Positions 19,263 through 26,724 of a stretch of DNA of 64,000 bases are shown piece after piece. The stretch spans positions 186,001 through 250,000 of the forward strand of contig NZ_QPMJ01000001.1 in the NCBI RefSeq assembly GCF_003369835.1. The letters are read 5' to 3'. A model generated the notes under the pieces. The model saw nothing but the letters and a program-made list of their open reading frames with translations, was not told the DNA's origin and searched no databases. A program made the position numbers and the translations under genes. Every line of letters begins with the position of its first letter. Position 1 is the first letter of the stretch. The DNA comes from Halorussus rarus. Its GTDB lineage: Archaea; Halobacteriota; Halobacteria; Halobacteriales; Haladaptataceae.

Positions 19263-19850
19263 TCATCCGAGGGCGCCGACGACGGTCGTGAACTCCATCT
19301 CAGCGTCGTCGGTCGTCACGCGCACGTCGAACGCCACCGCCAGGACGTGCGTCTCGCCGGCGCGCTCCTGGACGACCACGCCACGCCTCGCGTCGCAGTA
19401 GCCGAACTGCCGGTCCGGCCCGACGGGGCAGTTGGCGCGCCGCCACGCCTCGGCCGCCGACCGGTTGTACTCGACCTGGTAGACGGTCCCGGATTCGACC
19501 CGCGAGGACCGGAGCGCGTCGAGCCTGGGCCGCAGGTCGGCGTGCACCGCGGCCGCGGCCTCCCCGCGCTCGTCCCACGCGAATTTACCGGGCACGCCGG
19601 TCGCGGCGCCGTGGACCGCCCGCGTGAGCAGGCGCTCGGCGTTCCGGCCCGGCGCGTCGAACTGCCCGCCGGCGGTCACGTCGGCGTGGTAGCCCAGCTG
19701 GAGGTACGCCATCACGACGGGAGCGAGCGCGACGGCGACTATCGCGGCCGCCGCGAGCACGAGCTGGCCGCGGTCGGTCGGGGGCTGGGCCGGCGCCGCC
19801 CCGCGGTCCGTCGCGTCGGGGTCCGAACCGCCGACCGTCACGCGTACCAC
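19263..19850 (-). CDS. Pilus-cluster membrane protein (195 aa)
   Basis: The 195-residue protein has one N-terminal membrane helix (GQLVLAAAAIVAVALAPVVM) followed by an extracellular beta-rich domain with CDARRGVVV. The helix near the N-terminus with a charged stretch before it resembles class III pilin-like or pseudopilin proteins. It belongs to a haloarchaeal family known only from such clusters. It is the last gene of the PilB/PilC cluster and overlaps the next gene upstream by 13 bases. Function inferred only from position. Confidence 0.72.
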   Translation of the reverse strand: MVRVTVGGSDPDATDRGAAPAQPPTDRGQLVLAAAAIVAVALAPVVMAYLQLGYHADVTAGGQFDAPGRNAERLLTRAVHGAATGVPGKFAWDERGEAAAAVHADLRPRLDALRSSRVESGTVYQVEYNRSAAEAWRRANCPVGPDRQFGYCDARRGVVVQERAGETHVLAVAFDVRVTTDDAEMEFTTVVGALG

Positions 19851-20281
19851 ACCCAGATCGTCACGTCGCCGTGCGCGGTGCTCACCGTGGCCGACCCGAC
19901 CGCAGCCCCGGCCGGCTTCCGGAACCCGACCGCTCCGTGGGGCGTCCGGACCCGGAACAGCAGGTTGTCGGGCAGGATGCGCTCGACCCGCCGCCGGAGC
20001 GCGGAGCGCTCTCGGTCGAAGGCGTCGGGCGAGCGGACGACCTCCGAGAGCCGGGTCGCCCCGCCGTGGCGCGGCGGTTCGCCCGCGAGCACGGTCGCGG
20101 CGTCCTCGGCGTAGAGGTCCAGCTGGGCCGACCCGTCGGCGGCCGACGGGACGCCCAGCGCGAACCCCATCGCGACCGCGAGCACCAGCACCGCGCCGAC
20201 GCCGGCCTCGACGACCGACAGCGAGAGCTGTCCTCTGACCGGTCGCGGCGGGGAACGGCCGCCGGCTCGCCCCTCAGTCAT
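19838..20281 (-). CDS. Pilus-cluster pseudopilin-like protein (147 aa)
   Basis: The 147-residue protein begins with a short charged tail, then RGQLSLSVVEAGVGAVLVLAV, a helix after a conserved Gln-Leu-Ser start; this looks like the hydrophobic spine of a pilin-like protein. The mature part is small and mainly beta. It overlaps the genes on both sides (8 and 13 bases), so the whole set is likely one transcript. No catalytic residues are visible. Confidence 0.72.
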   Translation of the reverse strand: MTEGRAGGRSPPRPVRGQLSLSVVEAGVGAVLVLAVAMGFALGVPSAADGSAQLDLYAEDAATVLAGEPPRHGGATRLSEVVRSPDAFDRERSALRRRVERILPDNLLFRVRTPHGAVGFRKPAGAAVGSATVSTAHGDVTIWVWYA

Positions 20282-20960
20282 CGACGGTCACCGCCAGCAC
20301 CGCCTTCCGGGTCTCGGCCGGATAGTAGGTCAGTTCCAGGCTCCCCGTGGGGAGCGGACCGTCGGTCTCGAACGCGAGCGTCGCGGTCTCGAACCGCGAG
20401 AGGTCGACCGAGAACGTCCCCTCCAGCCCCGAGACGTTCCGGAGGACGATCCGACCGTTCGCCCGGACCGCGGTCACGTCGGTTCCGGCGGGCGGGGCGA
20501 GCGCGACGGTGACCCGGGGCGACCGGCGCGGGAGCGTCACGGCCGGGGCGTTCGCCGAGAGGTTCGGCGTCAGCGACGCCGCGGTCCGGTTCTCCACCAG
20601 CACGATGCGCCGGACCGTCGTCCCGCCCGTGGGCTCGCCCGCGGCCGCGACCGTCCGGTCGCCGAGCCGGACCCGCACGTCCTTGCCCTCGGCCACCGGA
20701 AACAGAGACCGGAGTCGGCTGGCGTTCAGCCTCGAGACGGTACCGGCGTCGAGGACGTTGGTGCGGGCGGTGACCCGCGACTCGGGGCCGACGAATCGCT
20801 CCGAGAGCGCGACCGCGACCCGGTGCCGGTCGGCGTCGCGCTCGGCGCTCAAATACGCCCGGTCGGCCATCCCGACGCTCACGACCGTCACGGTGGTCAC
20901 GACGAGCAGCGCGACCGCCAGCGCGGGCAGGTTCATCTGGGCGCGGTCGCGGCGGGTCAT
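20274..20960 (-). CDS. Pilus-cluster pseudopilin-like protein (228 aa)
   Basis: The 228-residue protein begins RDRAQMNLPALAVALLVVTTV, a single N-terminal helix with the AQMN start similar to the AQSN pilin-type start of the gene at 21495. The extracytoplasmic part of about 190 residues is rich in Val, Thr and Arg with a beta-sandwich-like pattern (SGLEGTFSVDLSRFETATLAF). It overlaps the gene at 20957 by four bases (ATGA). It is probably a minor pilin or anchor; that is inference. Confidence 0.72.
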   Translation of the reverse strand: MTRRDRAQMNLPALAVALLVVTTVTVVSVGMADRAYLSAERDADRHRVAVALSERFVGPESRVTARTNVLDAGTVSRLNASRLRSLFPVAEGKDVRVRLGDRTVAAAGEPTGGTTVRRIVLVENRTAASLTPNLSANAPAVTLPRRSPRVTVALAPPAGTDVTAVRANGRIVLRNVSGLEGTFSVDLSRFETATLAFETDGPLPTGSLELTYYPAETRKAVLAVTVDD

Positions 20961-21502
20961 CCATCCCCTCCGCTGGTGCCGACCCGGCCGCTGTCGCGTC
21001 TACCACTTGATTCGAGTCGGACAGCCAGGTCGTCACCGTGGCTCCGGACCACTACGAACGCCGGGTCTCGACTCGACCAGTTGCCCCGGACCGAGTCGAC
21101 GATTTCGGGGAGCGCGAGCGCGACCCGACCGCCGACCCCGTCTCGCGGGTGGTCAAGCACCAGGGTCCGGTTCACGACCCGGACGGCGTACGCTCGCCCG
21201 CGGATTGTCCGAGGGAGCGACACTGCGGTGCGACTCTCGACCGCGCGGGCGTCGGGCGGCACGGCCTGCTGGACGCGCGCGGCCGACTGGGCCAGCACGC
21301 GCTCGCCGACCTCCGCGCCCGCCGCGGTCCGGTACTCGGGGACGACCCCGCCGTAGAGGGTCGCCGAGAGGAAGGCGACGTAGAGGACGACGATACTGGC
21401 CTCCAGGGCCTTCCCGACGACCGGCGAGACCGCTCGCTCGTCGGCGAATGCGGCGCGACCCCGATTCCGACTGCGATTCGGGCCGCGACGACGGTCAGGC
21501 AT
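20957..21502 (-). CDS. Pilus-cluster membrane protein (181 aa)
   Basis: The 181-residue protein has an Arg-rich N-terminus (MPDRRRGPNRSRNRGR) and then DERAVSPVVGKALEASIVVLYVAF, a helix with the AVSPVVG start that is typical of haloarchaeal pilin-like proteins. The rest is a small extracytoplasmic domain (about residues 45-155) and a disordered tail. It overlaps both neighbours. The SPVVG motif makes it a probable prepilin-peptidase substrate, although no peptidase gene is in the window. Confidence 0.74.
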   Translation of the reverse strand: MPDRRRGPNRSRNRGRAAFADERAVSPVVGKALEASIVVLYVAFLSATLYGGVVPEYRTAAGAEVGERVLAQSAARVQQAVPPDARAVESRTAVSLPRTIRGRAYAVRVVNRTLVLDHPRDGVGGRVALALPEIVDSVRGNWSSRDPAFVVVRSHGDDLAVRLESSGRRDSGRVGTSGGDG

Positions 21503-22412
21503 GCCGCACCTCCAGTCGCATGTCGTGGACGACGAGGTAGGCCACCCGCTCGCCCGGGTACGAGGCCACGACGCTGGTGACGCCGTCGCCGTCGAAGTCC
21601 CGGGTCGTCGCCGTCGCGTTCCGACGCTCGAAGTGGCGGCGCCACGCCTCGGGGGTCGCGGTCTCGACCGCTACCCGGTAGGTGCCGTTGCCCAGCGCGG
21701 TCCGGTGGTGGCTGACGCTCGTCCGGAGGACGACCGATCCGCCCCCGGTCGCCGAGACGGCCGCCGATCCGTTCAGCTTCGGCGCACCGACCACGAGCAC
21801 GCCCGGTTGGTCTCCTCCGCTCGCGCCGCCTCCGCCGCGCGAGGCCGTGACCGGTGGCGCCGTCCGTAGCCGAGCGTTGTCGGGCGGGCCACGCACGACC
21901 GCGCCGGCGAGGAACGCCACCCGGCGGTCGCCCGCGGTGAAGACGAGCGCGTCGACCCGAATCCGCCGCACCACTCCGGTCTCGTTCAGCACGCGGAGGT
22001 CCCGTTCGACGGTCCGGAGTTGCCCCTCGGTGAACGACACGCGGCCCCGGTGGACGCCGGTCGCCGCGACGGGGTCGAGCGCCGCGTCGAAGTCGGCGGC
22101 CACGCGGGCCGAGTCGGCCGCCGCGGCGTTCTCTTCGACGACCGTTCCGATGCCGGCGGTCAGCGATCCGAGCGCGACCACGACCACCCCGAGCAGGACG
22201 GCGACGCCGACGACGTTCGACTGGGCGCGGTCGCGGTTCCCGAATGGAAGTCCGCGAGTCCGACGCCCGTCGGCGTCGGTGCGACGGCTCCGCCAACTGA
22301 GCCGCGATGTCCGAGTCCGATGCCCATCGGCATCGATGCAAACATCGCGGCTACTGAGTCGTAGTTCTCGATTCCGACGCCCGTCGGCGTCGGTGCGACA
22401 GCTACGACTCAC
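21495..22412 (-). CDS. Pilin-like protein with repeat-encoded N-terminal extension
   Basis: The 305-residue product has a pilin-type segment DRAQSNVVGVAVLLGVVVV (near residues 57-75) and a large extracytoplasmic beta domain. The only in-frame start I can find is GTG at 22412, overlapping the pilC stop (GTGA). This adds about 56 Arg-rich residues before the pilin motif, made of three 19-residue repeats with TDADGRR, IDADGHR, TDADGRR. They are encoded by the 57-base palindromic repeat at 22260-22393. The Arg-rich tail is unlike the acidic neighbours and may be an insertion read through by chance. Confidence 0.7.
   Translation of the reverse strand: MSRSCRTDADGRRNRELRLSSRDVCIDADGHRTRTSRLSWRSRRTDADGRRTRGLPFGNRDRAQSNVVGVAVLLGVVVVALGSLTAGIGTVVEENAAAADSARVAADFDAALDPVAATGVHRGRVSFTEGQLRTVERDLRVLNETGVVRRIRVDALVFTAGDRRVAFLAGAVVRGPPDNARLRTAPPVTASRGGGGASGGDQPGVLVVGAPKLNGSAAVSATGGGSVVLRTSVSHHRTALGNGTYRVAVETATPEAWRRHFERRNATATTRDFDGDGVTSVVASYPGERVAYLVVHDMRLEVRHA
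22260..22393. repeat. Three 57-base palindrome-containing repeats
   Basis: Three palindromes of the form CCGACGCC-CGTC-GGCGTCGG occur at 22260-22279, 22317-22336 and 22374-22393, spaced exactly 57 bases. The middle copy (CCGATGCC-CATC-GGCATCGA) has matching changes in both arms that keep the stem except at one end. The intervening bases are less conserved and less GC-rich. They lie inside the start of the pilin-like gene. Confidence 0.85.
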
Positions 22413-24361
22413 ACCATCCCGACCCCCGCGAACACGAAGTACGCGACCCCGACCAGCGCGCCCGAGTGGAGCAGCGCCTCGTATCGCCCGCGGCTGGCGT
22501 ACCCGGCGAACCACCCGCAGGCCAGCATCGTCGCCTGCGTGACGACGTAGAACCGTCGGCGGTCGCGCGCGGGTTGCACGGCGTCGGCGTCGAGCGCGAT
22601 GCCGGCGTCGGCGGTCGAGATGGACGAGAGCTGGGCGAAGCTGTCGAGGACGTAGGCGTCGACCGCGACCATGATGCCGACGACCAGCAACGCCGTGGTC
22701 CACCCGACCGCGACGTACACCAGCATGTTCGCGCGCAGCGACTTCCGCTCGTGGTAGAGCCGACCGATCTCGACCTGGAGGGTCTCGAACACCGCCTCGG
22801 CGTCGCCGCCGGCGTCGAGCGCGCCCGTGACGAGGCCGATGGTCTGGTCGGCCAGCGGCGTGCCGACCCGGTCGACGAACCGCGAGAGCGCGGCGGCCTG
22901 GCGGTCGCCGTCGCGCGTGGTCAGGTTGACGTTGAAGGCGAGGTCTGCCACGTCGTCGTTCAGCGCGCCGAGATCCACGTCCCGTGCGACGCGCTCGACC
23001 GCGGCGGAGAACGGCCGACCGAGGCTGACGTGGCCCGAGACCGCGTGGACGAAGTCGGTTATCTCGCGGTCCTTGGCGTCGTCGATGTTGGCCCGCCGGA
23101 GCGCGACCAGCCCCACCGGGACCGACAGCGCGACGTAGCCCAGCAGGACGGCGTCGACCGGTCGATAGTCGGCCGTCAGGAGCGCGCCGCCGAAGGCGAC
23201 CGCGGGTGGTGCGAACACGACTAACGCGCTCGCGGGGTTCCGGAACGCGCTGGCGAGTGTCGCGAGCGGTCCGGCCGGACGTCGGTAGTCCCGACCCGAC
23301 TGGTCCTGGGGGCGCAGCGAGCCGACCACCGCGGCCGCGACGCCGCCGACGATCAGGATGAACCCGGCGCTCCCGTAGACGAGCAGCGCCCGGACCGTGA
23401 TCGGGCCGAGCGGCGTCGCGGTGGTTTCGCCTAGCCCAGGCGCGAGCACACTCATCACGGTCACGACGATGACGAGCAGCGCCGGGAGCACCAGCAGGAC
23501 GACGAACATCTCGGCCATGAGTTCGAGGAAGTCGCCGGCCTGCTCGCGGTCCCTGGCCTGGCGGTTCGACAGCATCCGGCTCTCCATCTGGAGGTACTGG
23601 GCCAGCGCGTCGGGTCCCTGCTCGGCGTGCTCGCGGAACTTCACCAGGAACGGCGCGAGCGCGTCCCGGGAGGGCGTGTCCCGCGAGACCGCCCGCAGCC
23701 CCTCGCCGAGGCTCCCGGTCAGGGTCGCTCTGTTGAGCGCCTTCCGGAACGCCACGGCGGTCTCGCCGTACGCCTGCTGGCGGTCGGCGACCTTCCGGAG
23801 CATGGCCGCCCCGTCGTCGCTCCCCGACGAGAGCGCGTGGAGGTACCGGACCGCGCCCGGAAGCGTTCGCTCGATGTTCGACCGCCGGGCGCTCGCGAGC
23901 CACTCGAGGTAGCGTCCGCCGAGCGCGACGGTCGCGCGCTTGGCCGCGAGGCCGACCGCGACCCCCGTCCCCGCGGCCGCCGCGTTCCGCGAGACGGCCG
24001 GCGCGCCCACGGTTTCGAGGCCGGGGACCCCGCGCCGGAGGAAGCCGGCTGCGGCCCCGAGCGTGGCGTCGGGCAGCGCCACGACGGTGACGAACGTCCA
24101 CCCGCCGACGAGCGCGAGTGCGAGCCACGACAGGCCGTAGGTCCGAGAGAGGTAGACGTCGAAGCTCGCGCTCACGTCGGTCGCACGGTAGCGCTTGCGG
24201 TCGGCGTCGTGCCGCGTCGCGTCGGCGTGCCGGGAGAACAGCGCGTAGAGCGCCCGGTCCAGCACCGAGAGCGTGGGCGTGCCGGCCGCCTCGGCCGTTG
24301 CGTACGCGTCGCTCGCCTCCGTGGTCGCGCCCGCAGGTTCCGCCTCAGTTGCAGTGGTCAC
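22409..24361 (-). CDS. Archaeal pilus membrane platform protein, PilC/TadC-like
   Basis: The 650-residue protein has two type II secretion F domains, each a cytoplasmic four-helix part followed by membrane helices. The first includes LARVGP-free SSGSDDGAAMLRKVADRQQ and the second FVHAVSGHVSLGRPFSAAVERV. It is the membrane base on which the ATPase at 24499 acts. The GTG at 24361 has a strong GAGGAGG ribosome site 8 bases upstream, inside a short leader ORF. It is followed by a GTGA overlap with the pilin-like gene. Confidence 0.88.
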   Translation of the reverse strand: MTTATEAEPAGATTEASDAYATAEAAGTPTLSVLDRALYALFSRHADATRHDADRKRYRATDVSASFDVYLSRTYGLSWLALALVGGWTFVTVVALPDATLGAAAGFLRRGVPGLETVGAPAVSRNAAAAGTGVAVGLAAKRATVALGGRYLEWLASARRSNIERTLPGAVRYLHALSSGSDDGAAMLRKVADRQQAYGETAVAFRKALNRATLTGSLGEGLRAVSRDTPSRDALAPFLVKFREHAEQGPDALAQYLQMESRMLSNRQARDREQAGDFLELMAEMFVVLLVLPALLVIVVTVMSVLAPGLGETTATPLGPITVRALLVYGSAGFILIVGGVAAAVVGSLRPQDQSGRDYRRPAGPLATLASAFRNPASALVVFAPPAVAFGGALLTADYRPVDAVLLGYVALSVPVGLVALRRANIDDAKDREITDFVHAVSGHVSLGRPFSAAVERVARDVDLGALNDDVADLAFNVNLTTRDGDRQAAALSRFVDRVGTPLADQTIGLVTGALDAGGDAEAVFETLQVEIGRLYHERKSLRANMLVYVAVGWTTALLVVGIMVAVDAYVLDSFAQLSSISTADAGIALDADAVQPARDRRRFYVVTQATMLACGWFAGYASRGRYEALLHSGALVGVAYFVFAGVGMV

Positions 24362-24498: not shown

Positions 24499-26724
24499 CT
24501 ACGGCGTTCCCTCTCGCTTCACGCGCTCGACGGTCGCGGCCTCGTCGTTCCGGAGGTCCGCGAGGAACGCGAACAGGTCCTCGAAGTCGTTCATACCTTC
24601 CCGGGCCATGTACTGGACGTAGCGGTGCTTGCGGTGGAACTCGTCCTCGACCGCGTCGGGGGTGCGGTCGGTCCGCTCGGCGAGGCGGTCGAAGAAGCGG
24701 AGTCCCCTGTCCGCCGCCTCGTCGCCCAGCCGCGGGTGGTCGTACGCCAGTTGGAACTCGCCGTCGGTGTCGCGCCACGCGACCGCGTTCCAGTAGACGG
24801 TCGCGCCGTCCTTCTCGACCGCGCCGCATCGCGCTTCCGTCGGGTCCAGTCTCTCGTACTCGGATTCGGTGAGCAGTTCGACGACTTCGCCGACGTAGCG
24901 GTCGCCGTCGACCAGCCGGGGGAAGACGACGAGGTCCAGCTCCCGGAGGTGGTACGGCGGCAGCCCCTGCTCGACGACTCGGTTGATCAGCTTCTCGACG
25001 TCCTCGGCGTGGGTGGTGCCGATGATGCCGTGACCCGTATTCAGGCTCTCGGCGAACGTCTCGAAGCTCGCCGGCGTGTTGATCTCGGCGATGACCTCGA
25101 CGTCCGGATTGAGATAATTGCACTCGGTCATCAGGTCGGCCATCGTGACCCGCTTGTAGTCGCTCTCGTGGTCGCGGGTGGTGAGCGAGACGCCGGTCTC
25201 GTGGGGCAGTCGCACCTCCCGAGAGCCCTCGTCGATGGAGATGGGCCGGTCGCGGTACGGGATGAACGGCATGTGCGAATTCATCAGCGTCGTCTTCCCA
25301 GTGCCCGTCGGTCCCGAGAAGAGGACGACGCCGTGGTGCTCGTACACCTGCCAGAGCAGCGTGACCATCTCGGTCGAGAGGCTACCCGACTCCAGCAGGT
25401 CGACGGGCGTCATCGCCTCGGGGGCCTGCTTCCGGATGGAGATGTGCGGGCCGTCCTCGCTGATGACCCCGAGCGCCAGCGCGGCCCGGATGGTCACCTC
25501 CTCGGACACGCCCTCGGGCCGGAGGTTCACCTTCGCGCTGGGGTTCGAGGCGTTGAGCTCGGTGCCGTCGCTGGCGGCCATCTGGGTCACGACGTTGGCG
25601 AACTCGGCCTCGTCCTCGAACGCGAGGTTGGTCGGCGCGCGCTCGCCGTGGCCGATCTCCCGGCCGCGCGGCACCACCTTGATGCGCTCGCCGACCCGGT
25701 TGGCCTCGATGTCCTCCAGCAGGTCGTCGCGGATGGGGACGGTCAGCTTCCCGTGGCCGACGAAGTCCCGCATCACGTAGTAGACCAGGTCCGAGAGGCG
25801 GTCGGCCGAGAACCGGTGGTTCACGGGCGGGACCGCCAGATCGTACTCCGCGAGCGCGGTCCGGACCCGGTAGGCGGCGGCGTCGAGCCACGCCCTGGTG
25901 TTGCGCGCGGTCAGTCGCCGCGAGAGGAAGGTCCGGGCGCGCTCGCGGACGAACGCCGCGCGGTCCTCGACCACGCCGTCGACGTTGGTCTCCCAGATCC
26001 GGTCTTTGCACTCCTGGATGAGTTCCTCGTCGCCCGGTAGCAGGTCGGGTTCGAGCACCGCGTACTTGGTCGCGAACGAGTCGTTGGCCAACAGGTGCTC
26101 GCGGTAGACCACGACCGGCACCCGGAACTCCCGGAAGGCGACGGTGTGGCGCTCGACGCGCTCGCTGGCGAACCGCTCGAGGTACTCGGCGTCGGCCGGC
26201 AGGTCGGTGTCGGCCGGCGCGTAGTCGTCGGTGTGGACCACGAGCCGGTCGCTCGCGCTGTCGGCCACCTCGATGTCGTCGTCGAGCGCCAGCGGCGTCA
26301 GTTCGCCGAGACACCGCAGGTCCCGGAGCGCGTAGTACTCGACCGCCCGTCGGCTCTCGGGCGGCAAATCTGTCAGCCGGTCGACGATGCGGCGGTACTT
26401 CGGATCGAAGCCGGCCGCCATCCGCTCGCCGGCGCCCTCCCGGGTCAGCGGCCGGGCGAGGTTGGCGTCGGCGAAGTGGTCCTCGACGGTCGCCAGAGCG
26501 TCCTCGCCGCCGGGCGAGAGCGGCGGTTCCCGCACGCGGTAGTCGAATCCGTCGCCGGTCTCGGCGATTGTGGCGACGACGTCAGGGTGGAGTTCGTACT
26601 GCGCCCGGACCTCTGGCGCGTACCACGCCTCGGGGTCGTCCGGCGGCTTCGGCGGCGGCACCTGCGGCGGCGTTTCGGCGGGCCCGGCGCCGCTCGTCGG
26701 GAGCGTTTCGGTCACACCAACCAT
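24499..26724 (-). CDS. Archaeal type II/IV secretion ATPase, PilB-like
   Basis: The 741-residue ATPase powers the pilus assembly platform. Walker A is SGPTGTGKTTLMN near residue 470, and a Pro-rich N-terminal tail (PPQVPPPKPPDDPEAWY) precedes the folded part. The Walker B region ECNYLNPDVEVIAEIN and the HGIIGTTHAEDVEKLINRVV segment are conserved in archaeal GspE/PilB ATPases. TATA-like ATTTAAG about 24-28 bases before the ATG suggests a leaderless transcript. The 137-base gap to pilC holds a second promoter. Confidence 0.92.
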   Translation of the reverse strand: MVGVTETLPTSGAGPAETPPQVPPPKPPDDPEAWYAPEVRAQYELHPDVVATIAETGDGFDYRVREPPLSPGGEDALATVEDHFADANLARPLTREGAGERMAAGFDPKYRRIVDRLTDLPPESRRAVEYYALRDLRCLGELTPLALDDDIEVADSASDRLVVHTDDYAPADTDLPADAEYLERFASERVERHTVAFREFRVPVVVYREHLLANDSFATKYAVLEPDLLPGDEELIQECKDRIWETNVDGVVEDRAAFVRERARTFLSRRLTARNTRAWLDAAAYRVRTALAEYDLAVPPVNHRFSADRLSDLVYYVMRDFVGHGKLTVPIRDDLLEDIEANRVGERIKVVPRGREIGHGERAPTNLAFEDEAEFANVVTQMAASDGTELNASNPSAKVNLRPEGVSEEVTIRAALALGVISEDGPHISIRKQAPEAMTPVDLLESGSLSTEMVTLLWQVYEHHGVVLFSGPTGTGKTTLMNSHMPFIPYRDRPISIDEGSREVRLPHETGVSLTTRDHESDYKRVTMADLMTECNYLNPDVEVIAEINTPASFETFAESLNTGHGIIGTTHAEDVEKLINRVVEQGLPPYHLRELDLVVFPRLVDGDRYVGEVVELLTESEYERLDPTEARCGAVEKDGATVYWNAVAWRDTDGEFQLAYDHPRLGDEAADRGLRFFDRLAERTDRTPDAVEDEFHRKHRYVQYMAREGMNDFEDLFAFLADLRNDEAATVERVKREGTP

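Follow-up and report, generated by a model that had tools for sequence, protein, structure and literature searches.

A triplicated 57-nt hairpin in the prepilin leader of a Halorussus pil/tad-like operon: a candidate cis-acting RNA element at a coupled start

Introduction

Archaeal type IV prepilins are made with a signal peptide that has a charged N-terminus, and cleavage of this leader by PibD is described as established in the accessible sections of PMC4371748. In Haloferax, coupled translation by termination-reinitiation has been demonstrated at overlapping gene pairs (PMC6728339, available text). The NTGA-overlapping pairs of Haloferax volcanii resemble the junction described here in their 4-nt stop/start overlap, in the common direction of the two genes, and in their haloarchaeal setting; they differ in that the accessible part of that report gives no role to a conserved in-frame downstream hairpin, and the words "hairpin" and "stem-loop" do not occur in that text. 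A related mechanism is coupling by RNA unfolding, in which structure around the downstream start is opened by the upstream ribosome (as outlined in the available portion of PMC12548453). The Halorussus structure is similar in being close to the downstream start, but it begins at the stop/start itself, lies wholly downstream within the coding region, and may be present as several tandem copies.

Palindromes within or between genes have also been described in other settings. Rickettsia palindromic elements and REPs located in ORFs likewise add in-frame residues, are sometimes clustered, and may be N-terminal (PMC3733652, in the portion accessible), whereas the Halorussus unit is not dispersed and occupies one fixed locus. 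The stem-loops of selective RNA processing and stabilization also lie between co-transcribed genes and could set their ratio, but those treated in the accessible text of PMC8219983 are in 3' UTRs, whereas the Halorussus hairpin is inside the frame of the next gene. The coding palindromes of Nematomorpha mitochondria are similarly inverted repeats within coding sequence; as presented in the available part of PMC6649704 they are perfect, up to 284 bp long, and numerous, whereas those of Halorussus are imperfect, 57 nt long, and restricted to one locus. Open-access papers on Halorussus pilins, haloarchaeal coding palindromes, and archaeal coupling hairpins yielded no account of such a leader hairpin. 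RNA structures that act in cis near the start codon of a coupled gene are a known arrangement; what is unusual is that the present one is coded in a disposable leader and tandemly multiplied.

Results

The prepilin-like gene and its junction with the upstream gene

The window that we analyzed is a 64,000-nt stretch of Halorussus rarus DNA. It includes a pil/tad-like operon with the following features, listed in the order in which they are read.

24499..26724, minus strand, secretion/pilus ATPase gene, upstream (T2SSE, PF00437, E 2.8e-23)
22409..24361, minus strand, TadC/PilC/ArlJ-like membrane platform gene, upstream (T2SSF, PF00482, E 1.3e-17)
22410..22412, minus strand, GTG start codon of the DUF7289 gene, with a 4-nt overlap (GTGA, 22409-22412) with the upstream TGA stop
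21495..22412, minus strand, DUF7289 prepilin-like gene, 305 aa (PF23960, E 1.3e-54, residues 62-301)
20957..21502, minus strand, DUF7266 gene, next in the operon after DUF7289 (PF23928, E 5.9e-56)
20274..20960, minus strand, DUF7263 gene (PF23924, E 1.9e-83)
19838..20281, minus strand, DUF7262 gene (PF23923, E 1.3e-59)
19263..19850, minus strand, DUF7261 gene (PF23922, E 6.4e-69)

ArlJ models matched the platform gene weakly, below the cut-off. No literature on the DUF7289 family was found among open-access papers.

The platform gene ends, on the minus strand, in ATGGTGTGA. Between its stop codon and the hydrophobic domain of the DUF7289 protein, the frame is devoid of ATG, GTG, and TTG codons except for the GTG at 22410-22412, in agreement with the preliminary description, which had seen this as the only available start region. 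The two genes have the same direction and overlap by stop and start, as coupled pairs do, and 56 of the 57 orthologous junctions likewise have the pilin start in a 4-nt NTGA overlap with the upstream stop. From this start, 63 residues (the start codon counted) precede the pilin-like motif QSNVVGVAVLLG, and three 57-nt units lie in frame between the two. The protein has the layout of a type IV prepilin with a class III signal peptide, namely a charged N-terminus, a short cleavage motif, and then a hydrophobic stretch. We take the cleavage site to be at ...RDRA/QSNVVGVAVLLGVVVVALG, and the leader should be cut off by prepilin peptidase.

A tandem array of 57-nt hairpins begins at the overlapping stop

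Three palindromes at an exact spacing of 57 bases, the middle one with matching changes in both arms, had been noticed in the preliminary description, and both observations were confirmed: the 20-nt palindromes are located at 22260-22279, 22317-22336, and 22374-22393, and the changes in the middle copy preserve pairing. Although the palindromes are real, their extent had been understated; read on the minus strand, they are only the tips of larger hairpins of 57 nt that together span 22241-22411.

22355..22411, minus strand, hairpin unit 1 (57 nt), beginning at the upstream TGA stop, fold about -35.0 to -36.6 kcal/mol
22298..22354, minus strand, hairpin unit 2 (57 nt), fold -37.7 kcal/mol, with both arms of both stems changed relative to unit 1
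22241..22297, minus strand, hairpin unit 3 (57 nt), fold -27.0 kcal/mol, with an upper stem identical to that of unit 1

In each unit the lower stem comprises up to 13 bp plus 2 bp and is followed by an uneven internal loop of 2 and 3 nt, above which an upper stem of 8 bp is closed by a loop of 4 nt. Compared to unit 1, unit 2 shows six pairs that were changed on both sides and kept, three that were changed on one side and kept, and four that were broken. Unit 3 has lost the original lower stem and possesses a weak, shifted one instead. Because 57 nt correspond to 19 codons, the reading frame survives tandem duplication.

The predicted fold of 22220-22440 (minus strand) was lower than that of all 200 shuffled sequences (z = -6.6). 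We dropped the rarity of one strong hairpin as an argument, such hairpins being common in this GC-rich window, where single hairpins with 21 bp or more in 57 nt occur at 361 places on the plus strand and 340 on the minus strand. The features that chance does not account for are the 57-nt register of the tandem copies, the core that they share, and their covariation with the units of relatives. Among the six operon junctions in the window, only that between the TadC-like and DUF7289 genes has a strong fold: 0.4% of 760 local windows fold as low, versus 14-98% for the other five. The array gave no match to Rfam even at E values up to 1; membership among cis-regulatory RNA structures does not require a described Rfam family. 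A bulge-helix-bulge reading, with a splicing endonuclease as the actor, was set aside, as we take the loop geometry to misfit the strict motif.

The hairpin occurs in a subset of Halorussus genomes

We compared 18 Halorussus genomes, i.e. the source genome (G000) and 17 others, 12 of which in total have an intact orthologous junction. The remainder comprise G007, G010, G012, and G013, with distant matches only, G008, with a truncated match, and G017, with a fragment. In five of the 12 genomes a hairpin is present exactly after the overlapping start, as three units in the source genome and as one in each of four relatives. The single units of G004 (H. aquaticus) and G015 are close relatives of unit 1, those of G002 and G011 (H. 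amylolyticus) are diverged while sharing the same architecture, and unit 1 is the positional equivalent of all four. The other seven genomes (G014, G016, G005, G001, G006, G003, and G009) have different leaders. At 62 loci from across the haloarchaea we compared the folding energy of the first 57 nt past the upstream stop with that of the flanking sequence, and the five lowest relative values belonged to exactly the five carriers (z of -4.1 to -2.35, with the next at -2.02).

The carriers are scattered over the trees of the two flanking proteins rather than united in a single clade, requiring 3-4 changes, with many weak forks. The trees are compatible both with an ancestral hairpin followed by losses and with several gains. 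The sequence CGCTCCG...CGGACACG, common to G002 and G011, favors common descent, but support for the forks is weak.

As a separate observation on these operons, the TadC-like gene of G017 (L027) is a fragment with two TAG codons and that of G008 (L022) is matched only over residues 6-506, which suggests ongoing decay of the pil operon in some members of the genus.

Pairing is mostly retained while the stems and the encoded residues change

Over the seven available units, 87.6% of 161 cells were paired compared with 77.4% in shuffles (0 of 500 as high), and the covariation score was 0.437 versus 0.218 ± 0.035 in shuffles, a value reached by none of 500; this set includes three units from one genome, the structure was itself derived from these seven units, and related rows inflate the scores. 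When the arms were slid against each other as controls, only 31-40% of the cells were paired. Both sides had changed in 11 of 23 pairs, so that compensatory changes of the kind expected for a cis-regulatory RNA are present within these seven units. Despite the changes in the stems, all seven have kept the internal loop, in which C plus A or T stands opposite three bases. The units of G004 and G015 differ at three pairs, all by single-sided changes and all still paired, and over the same region the encoded amino acids are exchanged (F/S, S/G, and R/C). On the basis of these comparisons, the hairpin fold looks kept while the leader peptide that it encodes varies freely. The mRNA strand has eight G.U juxtapositions versus two A.C (one-sided p 0.055), which weakly suggests that the sense-strand RNA is the molecule that folds.

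The energy predicted for opening the region from -12 to +13 around the start was 19.3-25.5 kcal/mol in the carriers and 11.0-18.8 kcal/mol in the non-carriers (five versus seven genomes, with no overlap), an excess that follows largely from having a hairpin. In the predicted ensembles the start codon is mostly unpaired in G002 and G011, unlike in G000, G004, and G015.

Search for copies at other loci

The core pattern, allowing up to three mismatches, was found at this locus only in the 18 genus genomes, and a reversed control gave no match. A covariance model built from the units scored the seven training units at 58.9-79.7 bits (78.3 bits for unit 1). In the genus search the best score beyond the units and their opposite strand was 39.6 bits, in G006, and in 293 genomes of the order, searched with stricter filters that lose weak matches, the sole other match was in G232 at 40.6 bits. 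We inspected 11 non-training matches from the genus and the order, and none of these outside the units looked homologous. The G006 match is an unrelated, perfect hairpin of 27 bp that lies between genes, some 9 kb away from the pil operon (L110 1501-1558, G006:C1:1113327-1113384; -64.5 kcal/mol), the matches in G013 and G007 are unrelated perfect palindromes, and that in G232 is a weak hairpin that lies within a reading frame and lacks the shared core. One pattern scan of viral contigs and one search of plasmids gave no further copies. The many dispersed copies typical of REP or Rickettsia-type elements were absent from the 18 genus genomes.

Leader peptides of the orthologs

Leaders were compared at 57 of the 62 loci, five (L061, L071, L073, L083, and L084) having been excluded beforehand for an atypical motif or junction. 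They are hypervariable in length and sequence, with a median of 10 residues before the motif; the longest are the 63 residues of the source strain, 35 in G011, and 28 in L021, and L050 has 26. The preliminary description had proposed orthologs with the same long tail in non-repeated DNA as a refutation, and on this point the outcome is mixed: the leaders of L021 and L050 are indeed long and are encoded by different, non-palindromic DNA, so that length by itself is nothing special, but this tail occurs in no ortholog, and no other leader among the 57 reaches 63 residues. The leader is net positive at 40 of the 57 loci and not negative at 50, as would be anticipated from the charged start of a prepilin signal peptide (PMC4371748), so the Arg-rich leader is ordinary, and the doubt about coding that had been raised from its Arg-richness is not supported. 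In four of the five carriers the leader has a GC3 of 0.58-0.62 compared to 0.85-0.91 for the mature part, a difference to be expected of DNA that is shaped by a palindrome instead of by codon choice; the exception is G002, with no drop in the leader (0.88 versus 0.91).

Other kinds of repeat were encountered in this census. In the DUF7289 leader of L040 (Halorussus litoreus) the cleavage-motif sequence is present a second time (RAQSNRNRDRAQSN), apparently through a small tandem duplication. The leaders of L050 and L079, both from MAGs, are composed of Arg-Asp/Arg-Asn dipeptide repeats and so have become long and positive through another kind of repeat.

Discussion

The comparisons directly support the position of the unit, its fold, its covariation with the uneven loop preserved, its restriction to one junction, and the free variation of the peptide. 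The best explanation, which we hold tentatively and at somewhat short of even confidence, is that the unit may be a cis-acting mRNA hairpin at a coupled start, tolerated in a cleavable leader and tandemly triplicated here. The 57-nt unit would thereby act as an RNA hairpin of the pil/tad-like operon mRNA, encoded within the prepilin leader. It would make the start region costly to open, such that pilin initiation would be mainly by ribosomes finishing the TadC-like gene through termination-reinitiation, and the hairpin would set the amount of pilin made per ribosome pass. Alternatively, within the same explanation, it might simply damp pilin translation. Structure just downstream of the upstream stop correlates negatively with coupling efficiency, according to the accessible text of a review (PMC12548453), so that damping fits better than enforcement of pilin translation. 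The hairpin is not needed for coupling because seven of the 12 junction-bearing Halorussus genomes are without it. It would be free to grow and vary since the leader should be removed by prepilin peptidase, and in the source strain the unit would have been duplicated in tandem to three copies with the frame preserved. Points against a regulatory hairpin are the covariation set of only seven units, the mostly unpaired start codon predicted for G002 and G011, and the loss of the original lower stem from unit 3. Of the possibilities raised in the preliminary description, a regulatory array that happens to be in frame is retained, as a role at the RNA level is the best reading; a repeat insertion survives in part, in that the prepilin leader was lengthened in frame, while its dispersed-element form is weakened by the lack of another homologous copy in the genus and order. 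Overall, in-frame lengthening was borne out, an RNA-level role is favored, and the coding doubt was not supported.

A functionless mutational by-product, in which an imperfect palindrome in a leader under little constraint was homogenized arm to arm by replication template switching and expanded by slippage at the hairpin, is the alternative to be taken most seriously, although we consider it improbable on balance. Template switching has been proposed to create and maintain hairpins, giving matched arms without selection (PMC8794818, in the part accessible), and in this account the array would be tolerated since the leader would be cut off and a length of 57 nt, divisible by 3, keeps the frame. 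The hypervariability of the leaders over 57 loci indicates low constraint, matched changes are clustered in neighboring pairs (lower-stem pairs 7-9 and 11-12), and the carriers are scattered on the tree, all in keeping with this account. Copying of one arm from the other would, however, erase the uneven 2/3-nt loop, which is kept in seven of seven units; the G.U pairs in eight cells point to stepwise change; the changes between G004 and G015 are single-sided and yet all keep pairing; and no homologous hairpin was found elsewhere in the 18 genomes, the element being confined to one junction. The strong fold exactly at the TadC/DUF7289 junction, with none at the five further operon junctions of the window, would also suit an mRNA processing or stability element. 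Such an element would mark or protect the end left by a cut between the TadC-like and pilin genes and shift their mRNA ratio. Such operons are described for Clostridium (PMC8219983, accessible text), but here the hairpin is inside translated sequence, and a cut on the 5' side of the hairpin would leave the pilin start uncoupled; we regard this possibility as unlikely.

The patchy distribution of carriers might instead reflect a mobile palindromic element, REP- or RPE-like, that inserted in frame. This reading is disfavored, to the point of being very unlikely, by the absence of dispersed copies from the 18 genus genomes, the 293 order genomes, the viral contigs, and the plasmids, by a position that is always the same, and by the carrier junctions, at which inspection by eye revealed no target duplication. 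The function could also reside in the Arg-rich 19-residue repeat peptide itself, through leader charge, retention, or regulation, a proposal that the net positive charge of 40 of 57 leaders and the recurrence of SR...R(T/S)...TR in most units would favor. The recurring residues are largely forced by the palindrome, however, the leaders are only 4-13 aa long in six of the seven non-carrier Halorussus, and the residues differ between G004 and G015 while pairing stays; we therefore give a peptide function hardly any credence.

If the cis-acting hairpin is correct, cleaved prepilin leaders would be free coding space in which structured RNA can arise and be copied, and archaea would gain an easy way of setting how much pilin is made from a coupled start. 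The more specific proposal of a lineage-specific regulatory hairpin, variable in copy number (1 to 3) in a cleaved leader, with the leader as disposable coding space for RNA switches, the mature pilin unaltered, and pilin dose tuned relative to the assembly platform, is possible but doubtful. Because the peptide made from the same bases should be discarded, the array would also allow selection for an RNA fold to be told cleanly from template-switch mutation.

A long palindrome was also noted in another Halorussus, G007 (L116 1501-1557, G007:C2:201397-201453; -51.5 kcal/mol). It is inside the frame of a CPDCG zinc-ribbon protein, between two zinc motifs, and is perhaps another in-frame coding palindrome.
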